DNA of 64,000 bases from NCBI GenBank assembly GCA_030295235.1, contig AP026128.1, positions 620,001-684,000 on the forward strand, read 5' to 3'. Positions 20,282-25,868 of the stretch are shown piece by piece. Source of the stretch: Fistulifera solaris. Its lineage: Eukaryota > Bacillariophyta > Bacillariophyceae > Naviculales > Stauroneidaceae. Made by a program: the position numbers and the translations under genes. Under the pieces are notes generated by a model, which saw nothing but the letters and a program-made list of their open reading frames with translations, was not told the DNA's origin and searched no databases. Within the stretch, counting starts at the first letter, position 1, and each line of letters opens with the position of its first letter.

Positions 20282-22113
20282 ATGATGTTCACTCAGGAGA
20301 GCCATGGTGCTAATGGTAAGTCGTTTGCAGCTTTGATCGGACGTAGCGAGAGTATGTTGGTTGACTCACTTGTCGAAAATCTGCTAGTTGGAAGAAGCAT
20401 GAAAGGAGATATCTTGCAAGGACGTGGACCTGAAGATGGTTTTTCGAGAGATGGATCAAGAGAAGATTCGACTGGAATGAAAAGAAAGTACACCGATCGC
20501 GATCCAGAGTCTCCGGGGCACCTCGATGTGGATGTAGACACTCCGCTTGCGAAGAAGGAACGAAACTATTTTACCGATATGGATACCGATTCCCCTTCTT
20601 CCTACCCTAAGCATGTTCTTGTTCCATCCGAGCGATCGCTTGAGCCTAAACATTACATGCCGCACACAACACACTTGGGAGATGACCAACGTCTAGATCA
20701 GATTACCTTTCCGACCAATGATGCCCCTCAGGGTGTGCAAGTGTTGACTCCAGACAGTGTTGGACGTGGACGACCTTACGAACCCCAGCCATACCCCCCC
20801 TCGTCACTATCAGCAGTTTCATGATGTGTATCGAACCCCTTCTTATACTCCCTGACATGGATTATGGACGTTCCTATCCGGGACATCACGCTCAAGGACC
20901 CAGTGGTCATCCAGCTGCTGACGGATTTCCTCGTTCTCGTCGATGGGCGTGTGATTACTGCAATGTTGCGACTTTCTTGAGCTATGAAGAGGCTTGCGCT
21001 CACGAAGACGTATGCAGTCGTCGTCACCACGACTCTTCCTATTACGCTGAGCCTTTCCGTCACCGACCAGCTCATCCTGCTTATGGCGGCCAGCCGGCAC
21101 CGCAGGGCAGCGGACTTGGCGCGCTCTACCATGCAAGTCAAGAAGTTGTCACCCCTCCTACTCCCTACCATCAGCAACCCCCGAACCGTTGGGGTGCTCA
21201 TCACGCTCCTCCTCTCCCCGTGTTGCCCCATGAGCAAAACTACTATCGCCATGGCTACTATGACATGAGAGAAGAGCATCCTCACTACCCGCCGAGCGAC
21301 CCATACTACCACGCTCACATGCAACCATCGTACCCGCATCCCCAGCCACCGCCTCAAGATTACTATCAGAAGCGGTTGTTGTTAGCATTGCCTTCCGACA
21401 GGGACTCGCTTTCGGACCGACAATGCTTTGTTCGCTCAGAAATGGTTGAAATCTTCGCCGCCACTCAGAAAGATGTTTCCGCACGTCACTCCAAGGGTGC
21501 ACAGAAGCTTGTTTTGGGTCAAGTTGGCATTCGATGTGTTCACTGCAGTCACTTGCGTCCACGCGATCGTGCCGAACGCTCGGTATGCTACCCCAAGTCC
21601 ATTTGTCGCATCTACCAGACGGTAGCCGATATGCAGCGATTCCACTTCGAAAACTGCCGAGAGATCCCCGATCATGTCCGTCAACTCTACAAGAAGCTCA
21701 AGACGACACGTCCTCGTGGAGTTGGATCGCCCCAGAGCTATTGGGTGTCCAGTGCCAAATCGTTGGGCTTGGTTGACACGGGCGACGGTATCTGCTTCGA
21801 AGCCGACGCCGAGAACCAGGTCAAGGATGAGGAGCAGCAGCAACAGCAGGAACAGCCGCAGCAGCCACAAGAGCTAGCCGAGCAGCAACCGCAGGCCTCC
21901 CGAGAAGACGAGAAGCCAGACGAGCCGCAATCCAGCGATCTGTCACTTGAGGAAGTCAACGAGCCACCACGTGATGAAGTAGTAGTCAAGGAACCAACGG
22001 AGGAACCAGTGGAGGAGCTAGTACAAGACGAAGCTGCTTCTTGTCAACCCACCCCGCAAGAAGAGCAAGTACTCGAACTCCAGTCTTCCGAGATGTCGCT
22101 TGGAGAGAACTGA
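20282..22113 (+). CDS. Diatom-type zinc-finger/Gln-rich protein, unknown function
   Basis: About 610 residues. The N-terminus is polar (KRKYTDRD). A C2H2-like finger, WACDYCNVATFLSYEEACAHEDVC, precedes a Pro/Tyr/His-rich linker. A conserved block follows: SDRQCFVRSEMVEIFAATQ, VLGQVGIRCVHCSHL, VCYPKSICRIYQTVADMQRFHF, YWVSSAKSLGLVDTGDGICF. I recall this block in expanded protein families of diatoms; no function is known to me. The tail is Gln/Glu-rich. Two one-base frame changes occur: at the C7 run near 20795-20801 and at CTCCC near 20850. The natural frame between them reads PRHYQQFHDVYRTPSYTP. Nuclear or regulatory role is a guess. Confidence 0.6.
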
Positions 22114-22399
22114 AGGGGCTTTGACGACAACTTTTAACGGGGAAGGAAAAGAACATTAAACATTTAGTTACAGAAAATATGTGTTGTTTGACGTGTTTGA
22201 ACTTTAAACTATAAAGCCGGTATTATTACAAAGTACGGAGATAATCATCGTTTCTAGACCTCGAAATTCTTCTCGCGTACATCGTTTTAAAAAGTTATTT
22301 AAAACCCATTTGCTAAGACGTATAGGGAGTAGTAGAAACAATAAAAATTGGTTTTTGTTCTTTAGTATTTAATGCACTTCTTACAACCCGCGCCAATTT

Positions 22400-22460
22400 C
22401 TGCGTCGCTCTTGGGACCACTGGTGGATCAGTCCTGAAAGAGTTCATTCCGAAGTGAATC
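22400..22460 (-). promoter_or_regulatory. Candidate SECIS element in the SelH 3' UTR
   Basis: About 50 nt downstream of the SelH-like stop. On the minus strand: ATGA (22447-22444) A, then CTCTT, a bulge TCA, and GGAC. An apical loop containing CCACC follows, then GTCC, C, AAGAG and CGAC (22407-22404). CTCTT/AAGAG and GGAC/GTCC pair perfectly, and the ATGA/GA pair could form the tandem G.A quartet of a SECIS. The loop has CC rather than the common AA, as in a minority of known SECIS elements. I judged folding by eye; the lower stem is imperfect. Confidence 0.55.
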
Positions 22461-22494
22461 TCGCGGGTTATAGGATGCATTATGACGATTTCGC

Positions 22495-22973
22495 TTAAAG
22501 ATTGCAAGCTGTCGAGATATCTTGACAGACTTGATCCATGTCGAGGGCCTTGAGGGCCGGAAAGGGGCGTTTCAATGCCAACAACTCAACGACCGGTTCG
22601 TCCTTCCCACTGACGCGCACCACAAAATTGCCTTTACCGGGCTTTTCTTCGTTGATTTTGACGGACGCCTTTCCTTTGACTGAAAAAATGGTACACGATG
22701 ATGAGATCGACAACAGCGCGAAAGAAAGAGAATATTAGACACTTACAATACGTTTCAATTTTCAACGCCCTCGTCTTAAATGCATTTCATTGCTTGCAAG
22801 CTTCGATAGAGATGACGATTTCATTGTCTGCTGCCGTGGATTTTGTTTTGCTTTCCTTGGGGGACATGACCGCCTTCTTGACTGGCTTGGCCTTGGTCTT
22901 CCCCGCCGAGACCGGTTCTTTTTTTCGAGGCTTTCGCCTCAGCAGCTGGTACCGCACTTCTCAATGTACGCAT
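22495..22973 (-). CDS. SELENOH: Selenoprotein H-like protein (UGA = Sec)
   Basis: Two exons, 22973-22747 and 22679-22495, joined by a 67-nt GT-AG intron (22680-22746). The Rdx-type motif is IEACKQ-UGA, with the UGA codon at 22789-22787, giving C-x-x-Sec. Sequence before it is Lys/Ala-rich, like the nuclear tail of SelH. After it come NAFKTRALKIETY and KPGKGNFVVRVSG, as in SelH (a Pro-x-x-Gly-x-Phe-x-Val context), and a normal TAA/TGA-ended C-terminus. SelH is a small nucleolar thioredoxin-fold redox protein. The long start (22973) needs removal of one A from an A7 run (22919-22925); a start at 22867 needs no correction. About 135 residues long form. Confidence 0.75.
22680..22746 (-). other. 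Intron of the SelH-like gene
   Basis: Donor GTAAGT, acceptor TTTTTTCAG. It splits a TTC codon (T|TC) and joins KIETY to FKGKASV in frame. Confidence 0.75.
22787..22789 (-). other. Recoded UGA (selenocysteine) codon
   Basis: TGA in frame between CAA and AAT, at the position of the second catalytic residue of the CxxU motif (CKQU). The frame is open on both sides with SelH-like sequence. Confidence 0.72.
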
Positions 22974-23315
22974 CGTTGTTGATTACGAATGCAACTAATA
23001 GAACGAAAAAGTCTAGAAACAAGATGCGGAAGAGCTCGCCCTATTTTTCATGAAAACGATCCGTCGGCGCAGAAAAAGTCGTTGCGTCAGTCAGCCCAGA
23101 TTACTCTCTCTAGAGAGAGTACTAGAGTGTAGACAACGGTGCAGTCATGAGGAGTCAGTCATGAGGCGAAAAAATGACGCGCGCCCGCCAAAATCTCGTC
23201 CGCCGCATTGGTATATGTTTATTCGACAATCACGCGTTTCATCACAACACAACAAGAACCTAATGCTTTAACTTCATTATTCAAACACTTCACTTGCCTT
23301 CTATCTTCTACTACT
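22974..23315. promoter_or_regulatory. Divergent promoter region with an 18-bp palindrome
   Basis: 342 bp between the divergent starts of the SelH-like gene and DNAJC9. It contains the perfect palindrome ACTCTCTCTAGAGAGAGT at about 23103-23120. A direct repeat CAGTCATGAGG occurs twice, at about 23143-23165. Function as a shared promoter is inferred from position only. Confidence 0.45.
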
Positions 23316-24203
23316 ATGCACCCCATCGAAGAAGCCTTCGGCAAAGGCTGTTCACTCTACAAAGACGTGCTCCAATGCCCCAAAGATGCCTCCGCGGCGC
23401 AATTGCGGAAAGCGTATTACCGGGCCGCCTTGCTCTATCATCCCGACAAGAATCCCGATGGCCATAAACAATTTCAAGCCATTTCCATGGCGTATCAAAT
23501 TCTGAAAGATAAAGATATGAGAGATGCGTACGATGAATCGGGAGAAATTCCAGATACACCCGACGATGATGATGACATGGGAACTTCCGATAAAGGCAAT
23601 CCGTGGAAAGAGTACTTTGATCGCATCTTTGGTAAGGTGACTACGTCCGATATTGACGCTTTTTCGGCGAAATACAAATGCAGTGATGAAGAGAAAAAGG
23701 ATGTTTTGCAGCAATTCGTACAGCGCCAAGGAGATTTGCTGCAAATGCTCGAATTTGTCATGTTGAGTTCCGAAAAAGATGCCGTGCGGTGGGTGGAAGA
23801 TTATCTCCGACCGGCTCTGGAAGCCAACGAGATTCCGACCGAATATCAATTGACTATGGAGAAGACACTGGAAAAAGTACAAAAGAAACTTAGTAAGCAG
23901 AAGGATTCTGAGGAACAAGAAGACGATGATGATGATGACGCCACCGAGTCGGAAGACGATTTGCCTCCCGTTTTGCGCAAACCCAAACGCACTGTCAAAA
24001 AGGGGAAACCGACGCAAACCAAAAAGAAAAAGAACGACGACATGACCGATTTGATTGCACAAATTCAAAACAAGCGGCGCGGTGGAAACAGCCTTCTCCA
24101 GAGTATAGCGTCACGCTACGGTGTCGACGATCAGGATCCCTTGAACGACGAGGAATTTACCAAAGTTCAGGCGCGTGTCGAGTCAAAGCGAAAAAAGAAG
24201 TAA
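23316..24203 (+). CDS. DNAJC9: DNAJC9-type histone co-chaperone
   Basis: 295 residues from ATG 23316. The J-domain (residues 12-75) has an HPDK motif (LLYHPDKNPDGH). The central helical part (DIDAFSAKYKCSDEEKKDVLQQF, QGDLLQMLEFVMLS, RWVEDYLRPALEANEIP) matches the region that binds histone H3-H4 in DNAJC9. A poly-Asp/Glu stretch and a Lys-rich part follow, and the C-terminal LIAQIQNKRRGGNSLLQSIASRYG is also family-typical. It should recruit Hsp70 to histones in the nucleus. Undisrupted frame; divergent from the SelH-like gene. Confidence 0.85.
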   Translation: MHPIEEAFGKGCSLYKDVLQCPKDASAAQLRKAYYRAALLYHPDKNPDGHKQFQAISMAYQILKDKDMRDAYDESGEIPDTPDDDDDMGTSDKGNPWKEYFDRIFGKVTTSDIDAFSAKYKCSDEEKKDVLQQFVQRQGDLLQMLEFVMLSSEKDAVRWVEDYLRPALEANEIPTEYQLTMEKTLEKVQKKLSKQKDSEEQEDDDDDDATESEDDLPPVLRKPKRTVKKGKPTQTKKKKNDDMTDLIAQIQNKRRGGNSLLQSIASRYGVDDQDPLNDEEFTKVQARVESKRKKK

Positions 24204-24316: not shown

Positions 24317-25747
24317 TTAGACTCCCAAAACATGGGGGAAATACGAATGCAGTACGGCAGTTATGGCTCCCAGGATCGAGCACGCAAAGCCAAATCCCAC
24401 CAGGAACTTGCAAAAGTAGCGTTCCAATTTATTCTTCATCCTTCTTGTCACATCCTTGGACGTATGCTTCAAGTAAAGCAAAGCCGGATACGTGTAAATG
24501 ATGGCCGTCCCCGTCAAAGCCCCATTGAAACTAATGACAAATCCCGCATCTTTGACAAACAGCGCAATGCCCGTCAGTATGGATAACAAAAGTGCCGTCA
24601 CTTGTTTCTTTTCTCCTTCTCGACCCTTGCCCCACAATTGCAAAGCGGCGGAACGACATGCATCAAAGACAAAGGGAAAACCACCCACGACGGAAGTCAC
24701 AATGAGTGACTTGGAGACTTTGGCGCCCCAATCTTGAGCGGGATAATTGTTCAAAATGATTCCTTGTGCATTCGCACCAAACGTCAAGAAACCAAAAGCC
24801 ATGGCCGCCATGCTAATGAGTGTGACGGCCGAATACGAGAATGCTGTCATGATATTGAACTTTTTCAAGACCGACTCGTCCCTAATCGCGGCGTCGTTAC
24901 TTGTGCGTCCCCCCGTCAAGGCATGATAAAATTCTGGTGCCGAGAAATGTGCCATGAGAGCGACACAACTCATGGCAATCAAGAGAAGCGGTGCCGGTGA
25001 AGCCACTCGATTGTACGTATGAAACAAACCGGCCGTCGCATACGGACTGCTGGGTTGCAAGACGGGACACCGCCAGGCCAAAAAGGCAGTCGTCACGACC
25101 GTTCCGGTGACTCCTATGAGTGACAAGGGCGCCAACGAAGCGAGCGATGGTAGATTACAAAGTGGCCACAGAATCCCACCCGCCACCGCCAAAATAAAGG
25201 CCGAACGATTCGACCACCATGCCCCCATTAAACTGGTGACAGAATCTCCAATGACCAAGATATACGCCAAGGCACAACCGAAGCAATAGATAAAGTTGGA
25301 AAACGGAATCAGCGTTGATTTCTTTTCCGCATAAACGGCTTGCCACAAATCGCCCAAATTGTTGGCTTTCGGAAAATACGCATGCGTCAATCGTCCGTAC
25401 AATGCAAACGTATACGCCGAAAGAGCGGCAATGAGCGAAAAGAAGGTACAGCCCGCCCATAAACTGCTGGGATCATTTGAAATGGCCGCCAAACCCGACG
25501 GCAATGACAACAATCCTGTTCCTAACATGGCTTTCATGACACTGAAACTCGTCGAATAAAGACGCTTGTTGTTAGTAGATGAGATAGCCGCATCTTGTGC
25601 TTCATTGGGTACATTCTCGTCGGACGACAACGACGGTGTAGAGGTGAGAGCCAACGGAACCGAAAGACAGCGATGCAACTGCAGTTGTTGCGGCGGCAGA
25701 AAGGCTTCCGTGACCCAAAGTAAGCACAATATTCGAATAATACGCAT
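24317..25747 (-). CDS. AAAP/SLC38-type amino-acid transporter with plastid presequence
   Basis: 476 residues from ATG 25747. The signal peptide MRIIRILCLLWVTEA is followed by FLPPQ, a typical diatom plastid cleavage context with Phe at +1. A Ser/Thr-rich transit part precedes about 10-11 membrane segments of the amino-acid/auxin permease family. The first of these is FSVMKAMLGTGLLSLPSGLA, the family's substrate-binding helix. The signal suggests a plastid or periplastid membrane; substrate and direction are unknown. The first Met used has the best signal peptide; upstream in-frame codons add nothing recognisable. Confidence 0.7.
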   Translation of the reverse strand: MRIIRILCLLWVTEAFLPPQQLQLHRCLSVPLALTSTPSLSSDENVPNEAQDAAISSTNNKRLYSTSFSVMKAMLGTGLLSLPSGLAAISNDPSSLWAGCTFFSLIAALSAYTFALYGRLTHAYFPKANNLGDLWQAVYAEKKSTLIPFSNFIYCFGCALAYILVIGDSVTSLMGAWWSNRSAFILAVAGGILWPLCNLPSLASLAPLSLIGVTGTVVTTAFLAWRCPVLQPSSPYATAGLFHTYNRVASPAPLLLIAMSCVALMAHFSAPEFYHALTGGRTSNDAAIRDESVLKKFNIMTAFSYSAVTLISMAAMAFGFLTFGANAQGIILNNYPAQDWGAKVSKSLIVTSVVGGFPFVFDACRSAALQLWGKGREGEKKQVTALLLSILTGIALFVKDAGFVISFNGALTGTAIIYTYPALLYLKHTSKDVTRRMKNKLERYFCKFLVGFGFACSILGAITAVLHSYFPHVLGV

Positions 25748-25868
25748 ACTTGAATTGCTGTAGTGGTAATCAGGAACGGCTACAATGAAAGAATGCCCTT
25801 GATGCGATTGATGCAGTCTCGAGAGAGTGCCGGGTGTCATTGCGATCTAGTTTTCATGTTTGCACTTA

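Follow-up and report, generated by a model that had tools for sequence, protein, structure and literature searches.

Sequence evidence for a selenoprotein H gene with an in-frame UGA codon and a homeologous copy in the diatom Fistulifera solaris

A 64,000-nt stretch of the genome of the oil-rich diatom Fistulifera solaris (referred to here as the window) was analyzed, which corresponds to positions 620001-684000 of contig C13 in a 51.7-Mb genome of 61 contigs (C13, C14, and the like are contig labels). Judged by its sequence, one locus on the minus strand of the window is a genuine selenoprotein H (SelH) gene. This nuclear gene very probably encodes a SelH in which the UGA of a CKQU motif is read as selenocysteine (Sec) by means of a selenocysteine insertion sequence (SECIS) in the 3' untranslated region (UTR), since the homeologous copy, the substitution pattern, the relatives with Cys, the predicted fold of a relative, and the Sec machinery of the genome all fit such a selenoprotein. 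The gene consists of the following parts.

22747-22973, minus strand: SelH exon 1, with ATG 22973 as the putative start, in agreement with relatives
22787-22789, minus strand: in-frame UGA, the putative Sec codon of CKQU
22680-22746, minus strand: GT-AG intron of 67 nt, phase 1 (64 nt at the same place in the homeolog)
22495-22679, minus strand: SelH exon 2, with the stop codon TAA at 22497-22495

The TGA at 22789-22787 was located at the Sec position of the CxxU motif (...EACKQ-TGA-NAFKTR... on the minus strand), as claimed in the preliminary description of this DNA, and the SelH-like continuation in frame past the UGA and the 67-nt intron, claimed in the same description, was also seen. The reading frame runs as ...NEIVISIEACKQ-TGA-NAFKTRALKIETY, and then across the intron (22746-22680, ends GTAAGT...CAG) into FKGKASVKINEEKPGKGNFVVRVSGKDEPVVELLALKRPFPALKALDMDQVCQDISTACNL and the TAA at 22497-22495. 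TGA also functions as a stop codon here, because the neighbouring gene at 20821-22113 terminates in TGA.

Fistulifera solaris is allopolyploid according to the available part of PMC5935921. A second SelH copy was found on C14, with a TGA at 619028, a 64-nt intron at the same place with conserved ends, and a hairpin past the stop codon. The identity between the two copies, with gaps left out, was 71/122 in the upstream flank, 120/137 in the N-terminal part, 39/47 in the 47 bases before the UGA, 36/40 in exon 1 past the UGA, 47/63 in the intron, and 167/185 in exon 2; downstream it was 22/28 in the UTR before the SECIS, 70/83 in the SECIS region, and 53/87 beyond it. In the codons past the UGA, 18 synonymous and only 3 non-synonymous differences were counted, giving dN of 0.018 and dS of 0.533 by NG86 and dN of 0.019 and dS of 0.419 by YN00. 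These rates indicate strong purifying selection on the codons past the UGA. As dN is far below dS there and an untranslated frame would look otherwise, these results suggest that the frame past the UGA is translated.

Thirty-six relatives were obtained by a protein search at E up to 0.01, and 25 of them were aligned with the window protein. Cys stood at the UGA position in 8/36 relatives (P0019, P0022, P0025-P0029, and P0031), and the sequence around the site (EACKQ-x-NAFKTR) was conserved. Trp was present in 11/36 (P0002-P0004, P0006-P0012, and P0015), the site was not contained in 14/36, two gene models skipped it (P0001 and P0034 of Triparma), and P0036 terminated at EACKQ. The Trp at exactly the Sec site in metagenome open reading frames (ORFs) probably reflects TGA translated by code 4, as judged by its position, with TGG being possible for any one of them. 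P0005 carried unrelated sequence just before VKGKASV, as expected if the reading had been extended backwards into an intron located at the corresponding place. When DNA of other SelH genes was sought, no confirmed relative was found in the genomic and viral contig collections searched.

Two further features of the relatives were observed. In P0036, a protein of 91 aa from a 1033-base metagenome contig, the end of one SelH domain was connected through an acidic linker to PVVSIEACKQ, where the ORF stops; judged by this order, P0036 seems to be a tandem double SelH, with the second domain interrupted at its Sec codon. P0019, P0022, and P0027 had Cys for Sec (CKTC) and a shortened helix while being close to the UGA-type relatives, which would fit either a replacement of Sec by Cys or a distinct paralogue.

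The hairpin in the 3' UTR of the window gene was as follows.

22385-22469, minus strand: SECIS-like element, with an outer stem, ATGA at 22447-22444, and CGAC at 22407-22404

The outer stem is formed by AACCCGCG and CGCGGGTT (22469-22462 pairing with 22392-22385), followed by ATGA and CGAC at the foot of helix II, helix II itself (CTCTT/AAGAG), an upper stem (GGACT/GGTCC), and an apical loop of 11 nt, GATCCACCAGT, which contains CC. CC is known as an alternative apical motif of SECIS elements. The ATGA of the candidate (22447-22444) lies 47 nt past the SelH stop. The earlier claim of a stem-loop about 50 nt past the stop, with an ATGA...GA core, CTCTT/AAGAG and GGAC/GTCC arms, and a CC-type loop, thus held in its elements, but the outer stem extends to 22385, beyond the limit of 22400 that had been given for the gene region. 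A home-made scanner, which is not SECISearch3 and whose thresholds were set so that the window candidate just passes, gave one filtered match on both strands of the 64-kb window, the SelH candidate, and ten unfiltered ones. In 200 dinucleotide shuffles of the window, 345 filtered matches were obtained, which corresponds to about 1.7 in each window and 0.002 in 150 nt; of the shuffles of the SelH 3' UTR, 3/5000 passed. Such shuffled hit rates are a rough guide and not a P value. Since shuffled windows average 1.7 matches, the specificity of the candidate comes from its position just past the stop and its conservation, not from its rarity in 64 kb. A 121-nt form of the window hairpin had a folding energy of -35.7 kcal/mol (z -2.29, with 4/200 shuffles as low), and the 88-nt homeolog hairpin had -28.9 kcal/mol (z -3.01, 1/200). 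The latter follows the same plan, its helix II having 6 bp followed by AA and its helix I being better closed. Between the two copies, one outer pair was changed from G-C to A-U and one G-U to U-G.

The genome also contains the machinery for Sec. Six loci for tRNA-Sec scored above the Rfam cut-off, of which five were called tRNA-Sec with the anticodon TCA by ARAGORN, and SepSecS genes were present on C9 and C10. Four of the tRNA loci (L008-L010 and L012) form tandem pairs at C27 330126/330331 and C29 316339/316549, with a spacing of 205 and 210 nt, respectively; the second C29 copy had a lower score (66.5 bits) and was the one not called by ARAGORN. Furthermore, a homeologous pair of genes with CTS-TGA-GMQRNF was found at C13 961801 and C14 913461, which we take from the sequence to be SelT.

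L033 1525-2060 and L034 1525-2065: SelT-like pair, with in-frame TGA (CTSU) and SECIS with AAAAC

With the same filter, the scanner detected a SECIS 46 and 50 nt past the stop in 2/2 SelT copies (ATGAC-GACCGC-AAAAC and ATGAC-GGCCGC-AAAAC); a further match about 840 nt past the L033 stop was taken as chance. The SelT genes share with the SelH gene the CxxU motif, the UGA, a helix II of about 6 bp, an upper stem, and a SECIS about 50 nt past the stop, whereas they differ in the CTSU sequence and in the AAAAC of both SECIS copies. The SelT pair matched the Rdx family, the second exons scoring above the Rdx cut-off and the exons with CTSU just below it. Another homeologous pair, GPx at C19 169940 (L022) and C20 156424 (L023), had an in-frame TGA in NVASK-TGA-GLTKVNY. 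Downstream of the C19 gene, a hairpin starting from ATGATGGTATTTAC with no clear AA or CC was observed.

The assignment to SelH rests on named SelH relatives, the UniRef name Selenoprotein H being borne by P0001, P0028, P0031, and P0034. NCBIfam models of SelT/W/H matched the window protein with E values of 5.7e-05 and 0.01, below their curated cut-offs, and Rdx matches at E up to 0.1 were obtained for 7/23 relatives in alignment A2 and 6/26 members of alignment A1. In the predicted fold of the relative P0003 (not the window protein), a strand at 49-54 is followed by CKQW at 55-58 and a helix at 59-72, and the best structure matches of this model were 3dex and 2fa8, with modest scores. A profile search of the PDB gave 3dex at E 0.15, which was also the top protein of the fold search, and a PDB sequence search with the window protein gave a chance match only (2dku, E 0.37). 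From this model, a thioredoxin-like fold of the Rdx/SelW type is predicted, in which CxxU follows the first strand. Animal SelH is a redox-active protein of the nucleus or nucleolus. The F. solaris protein resembles SELENOH/SelH in its putative basic N-terminal tail and in the apparent decoding of UGA with a 3' UTR SECIS. It also shares CxxU in a predicted Rdx-type domain with SELENOH/SelH, such as BthD in flies and the Ostreococcus SelH in the available part of PMC2375036, whereas it is a CKQU variant, the Cys forms being CKQC in sedges and CKTC in further relatives.

Several results weigh against a functional Sec-encoding gene at this locus. The frame from ATG 22973 to the UGA is broken in both homeologous copies in the assembly. 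The 85-nt hairpin of the window copy had only -23.4 kcal/mol (z -0.56), 54/200 shuffles being as low, and CA stands beside its helix II, as against AA in the homeolog and in SelT. Covariation between the two copies was not significant (112/500 shuffles reached the observed values), and with the partners slid by +2 the covariation score was 0.192 as compared with 0.179, although 49% of the cells were then paired as against 92.6%; there is thus no real covariation support for the hairpin, as both the shuffles and the slide reach such scores. No Rfam SECIS match was obtained at 22200-22700 (E up to 10, with only a chance match to JPX_1), and no Rfam match in the whole window at gathering scores; SECIS_1 of Rfam had zero matches genome-wide, so that the SelT elements were missed too. 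Even with looser limits, the scanner detected no complete SECIS behind GPx in 2/2 copies. The window protein had no match to Pfam Rdx, the genome search with Rdx gave eight matches with neither SelH copy among them, and no PDB structure reached a Foldseek E of 0.001 with the P0003 model.

The hairpin results raise the question of whether the window-copy hairpin no longer works well, the C14 homeolog alone being an efficient selenoprotein gene. This we regard as improbable. The C14 hairpin is indeed the more stable of the two by both energy and z, and its 6-bp helix II followed by AA and its closed helix I are much like those of SelT, in place of the UCA/C of the window copy. However, SECIS elements with an apical CC are known, and the codons past the UGA have diverged almost only synonymously, in a pairwise test that singles out neither copy. 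A divergence of the decoding signal is doubtful though conceivable, in which after allodiploidisation C14 kept the canonical SECIS and the window copy drifted to CA/CC with a weaker stem, so that the copies would differ in the efficiency of UGA decoding or in selenium dependence.

The best of the 36 protein matches was P0001, the hypothetical protein FisN_22Hh210 of F. solaris, which evidently represents the same locus. It was identical to the window protein from ALKIETY to the end and alike in the N-terminal tail, but it lacked 32 residues (SPKES...ACKQ-U-NAFKTR) and read as if six A were present where the window has seven. The preliminary description had supposed that a standard gene finder would halt at the UGA; the public model instead spliced the UGA out with a 96-nt intron.

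22770-22865, minus strand: stretch excised as a 96-nt intron in FisN_22Hh210, which includes the UGA with its CxxU motif; considered an artefact

If this splicing were real, a short protein without Sec would be made, and GT and AG are in fact present at the intron ends, P0001 carrying exactly the resulting junction M|ALKIETY. We consider such splicing highly improbable: the donor position is GC instead of GT in the homeolog, the excised part contains the active site of the fold together with its first strand, and relatives, including the Cys-bearing ones, keep EACKQ-x-NAFKTR. On comparison with these sequences, the 96-nt intron is very probably false, a device by which a gene finder bypassed the UGA.

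At the N-terminus, ATG 22973 opens MRTLRSAVPAAEAKASKK, which resembles the relatives (MVRTTRSSARLAAAPAKEAPV in P0004). The distance from this ATG to the UGA is 184 nt, one too many, so that this ATG, which was the end of the gene range given earlier, is not in frame with the UGA in the assembly. A run of seven A at 22925-22919 shifts the frame between the two. The UGA frame upstream of CKQU contains the basic stretch EPVSAGKTKAKPVKK, and the basic tail KKEPVSAGKTKAKPVKK is found in this frame and in P0001, connecting to ATG 22973 only when six A are given; P0001 joins the ATG 22973 part to the basic stretch in just this way. In the homeolog, the frame is broken at two A-rich places. We also compared homopolymers in the neighbouring DnaJ and permease genes (window 23311-24203 and 24317-25840) with their copies at C14 615500-623500. 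The window genes are intact. In the C14 copies, two A runs of DnaJ were each shorter by one A, and a G run of the permease gene was longer by one base; the permease copy also had a 2-nt gap close to its start. Since P0001 reads as six A and single-base homopolymer indels break homeologous neighbour copies, the extra A at 22925-22919 is likely an assembly error. We infer that the assembly was made from nanopore reads; a sister assembly is named Fpelliculosa_ONT_v02 in the available part of PMC12159174. As both copies are out of frame, programmed frameshifting in the stretch from ATG 22973 to the UGA was also considered. It was regarded as less likely, because the window needs one base fewer and the homeolog one change at each of two A-rich places, and because of the same P0001 and C14 comparisons. 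If the explanation by an assembly error is wrong, translation of the window copy could begin at ATG 22867.

22865-22867, minus strand: first ATG in the UGA frame, giving 101 residues with Sec at 27; absent from the homeolog

That the UGA is a true stop, with a truncated peptide or a decaying gene whose exon 2 is no longer translated, is very hard to credit: the interrupted ATG-to-UGA frame of both assembled copies would suit it, but selection past the UGA is strong, both subgenomes keep the UGA, and the SECIS region is better conserved than the sequence just beyond it (70/83 against 53/87 aligned columns).

Taken together, the findings are consistent with a nuclear gene of the allodiploid F. 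solaris that would be translated from ATG 22973, with six A at 22925-22919, into a small Rdx-type (thioredoxin-like) protein with a lysine-rich N-terminal tail and presumable redox activity. The two exons would be spliced at the 67-nt intron, and the 3' UTR hairpin would recruit the Sec decoding machinery and Sec-tRNA(UCA), so that the UGA of CKQU may be read as Sec and translation may proceed to the TAA at 22497. Sec-containing SelH has already been reported as widespread in algae (PMC7539508), and a SelH in an alga is therefore expected biology, the present gene being a new or newly corrected member among known SelH genes. The available part of PMC7539508 names F. solaris once, for another family, and the gene may already be listed in its supplement. 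In the 2007 table of PMC2375036, as far as available, SelH is given for two Ostreococcus species and the fly, not for the diatom Thalassiosira pseudonana. The present analysis sets right a public gene model in which the active site of a selenoprotein is concealed, and the homeologous pair allows the Sec codon and the SECIS to be compared within one cell. Annotation pipelines seem to handle such genes by false introns, Trp at the Sec site, or truncated ORFs.

In the genome search with Rdx, matches without stops were also found side by side at C13 1141829-1142467 and C14 1079106-1079745 (L027-L030), those on C13 lying in one frame of 306 residues; from this arrangement, a double-domain Rdx (SelW-like) gene without Sec is possible.
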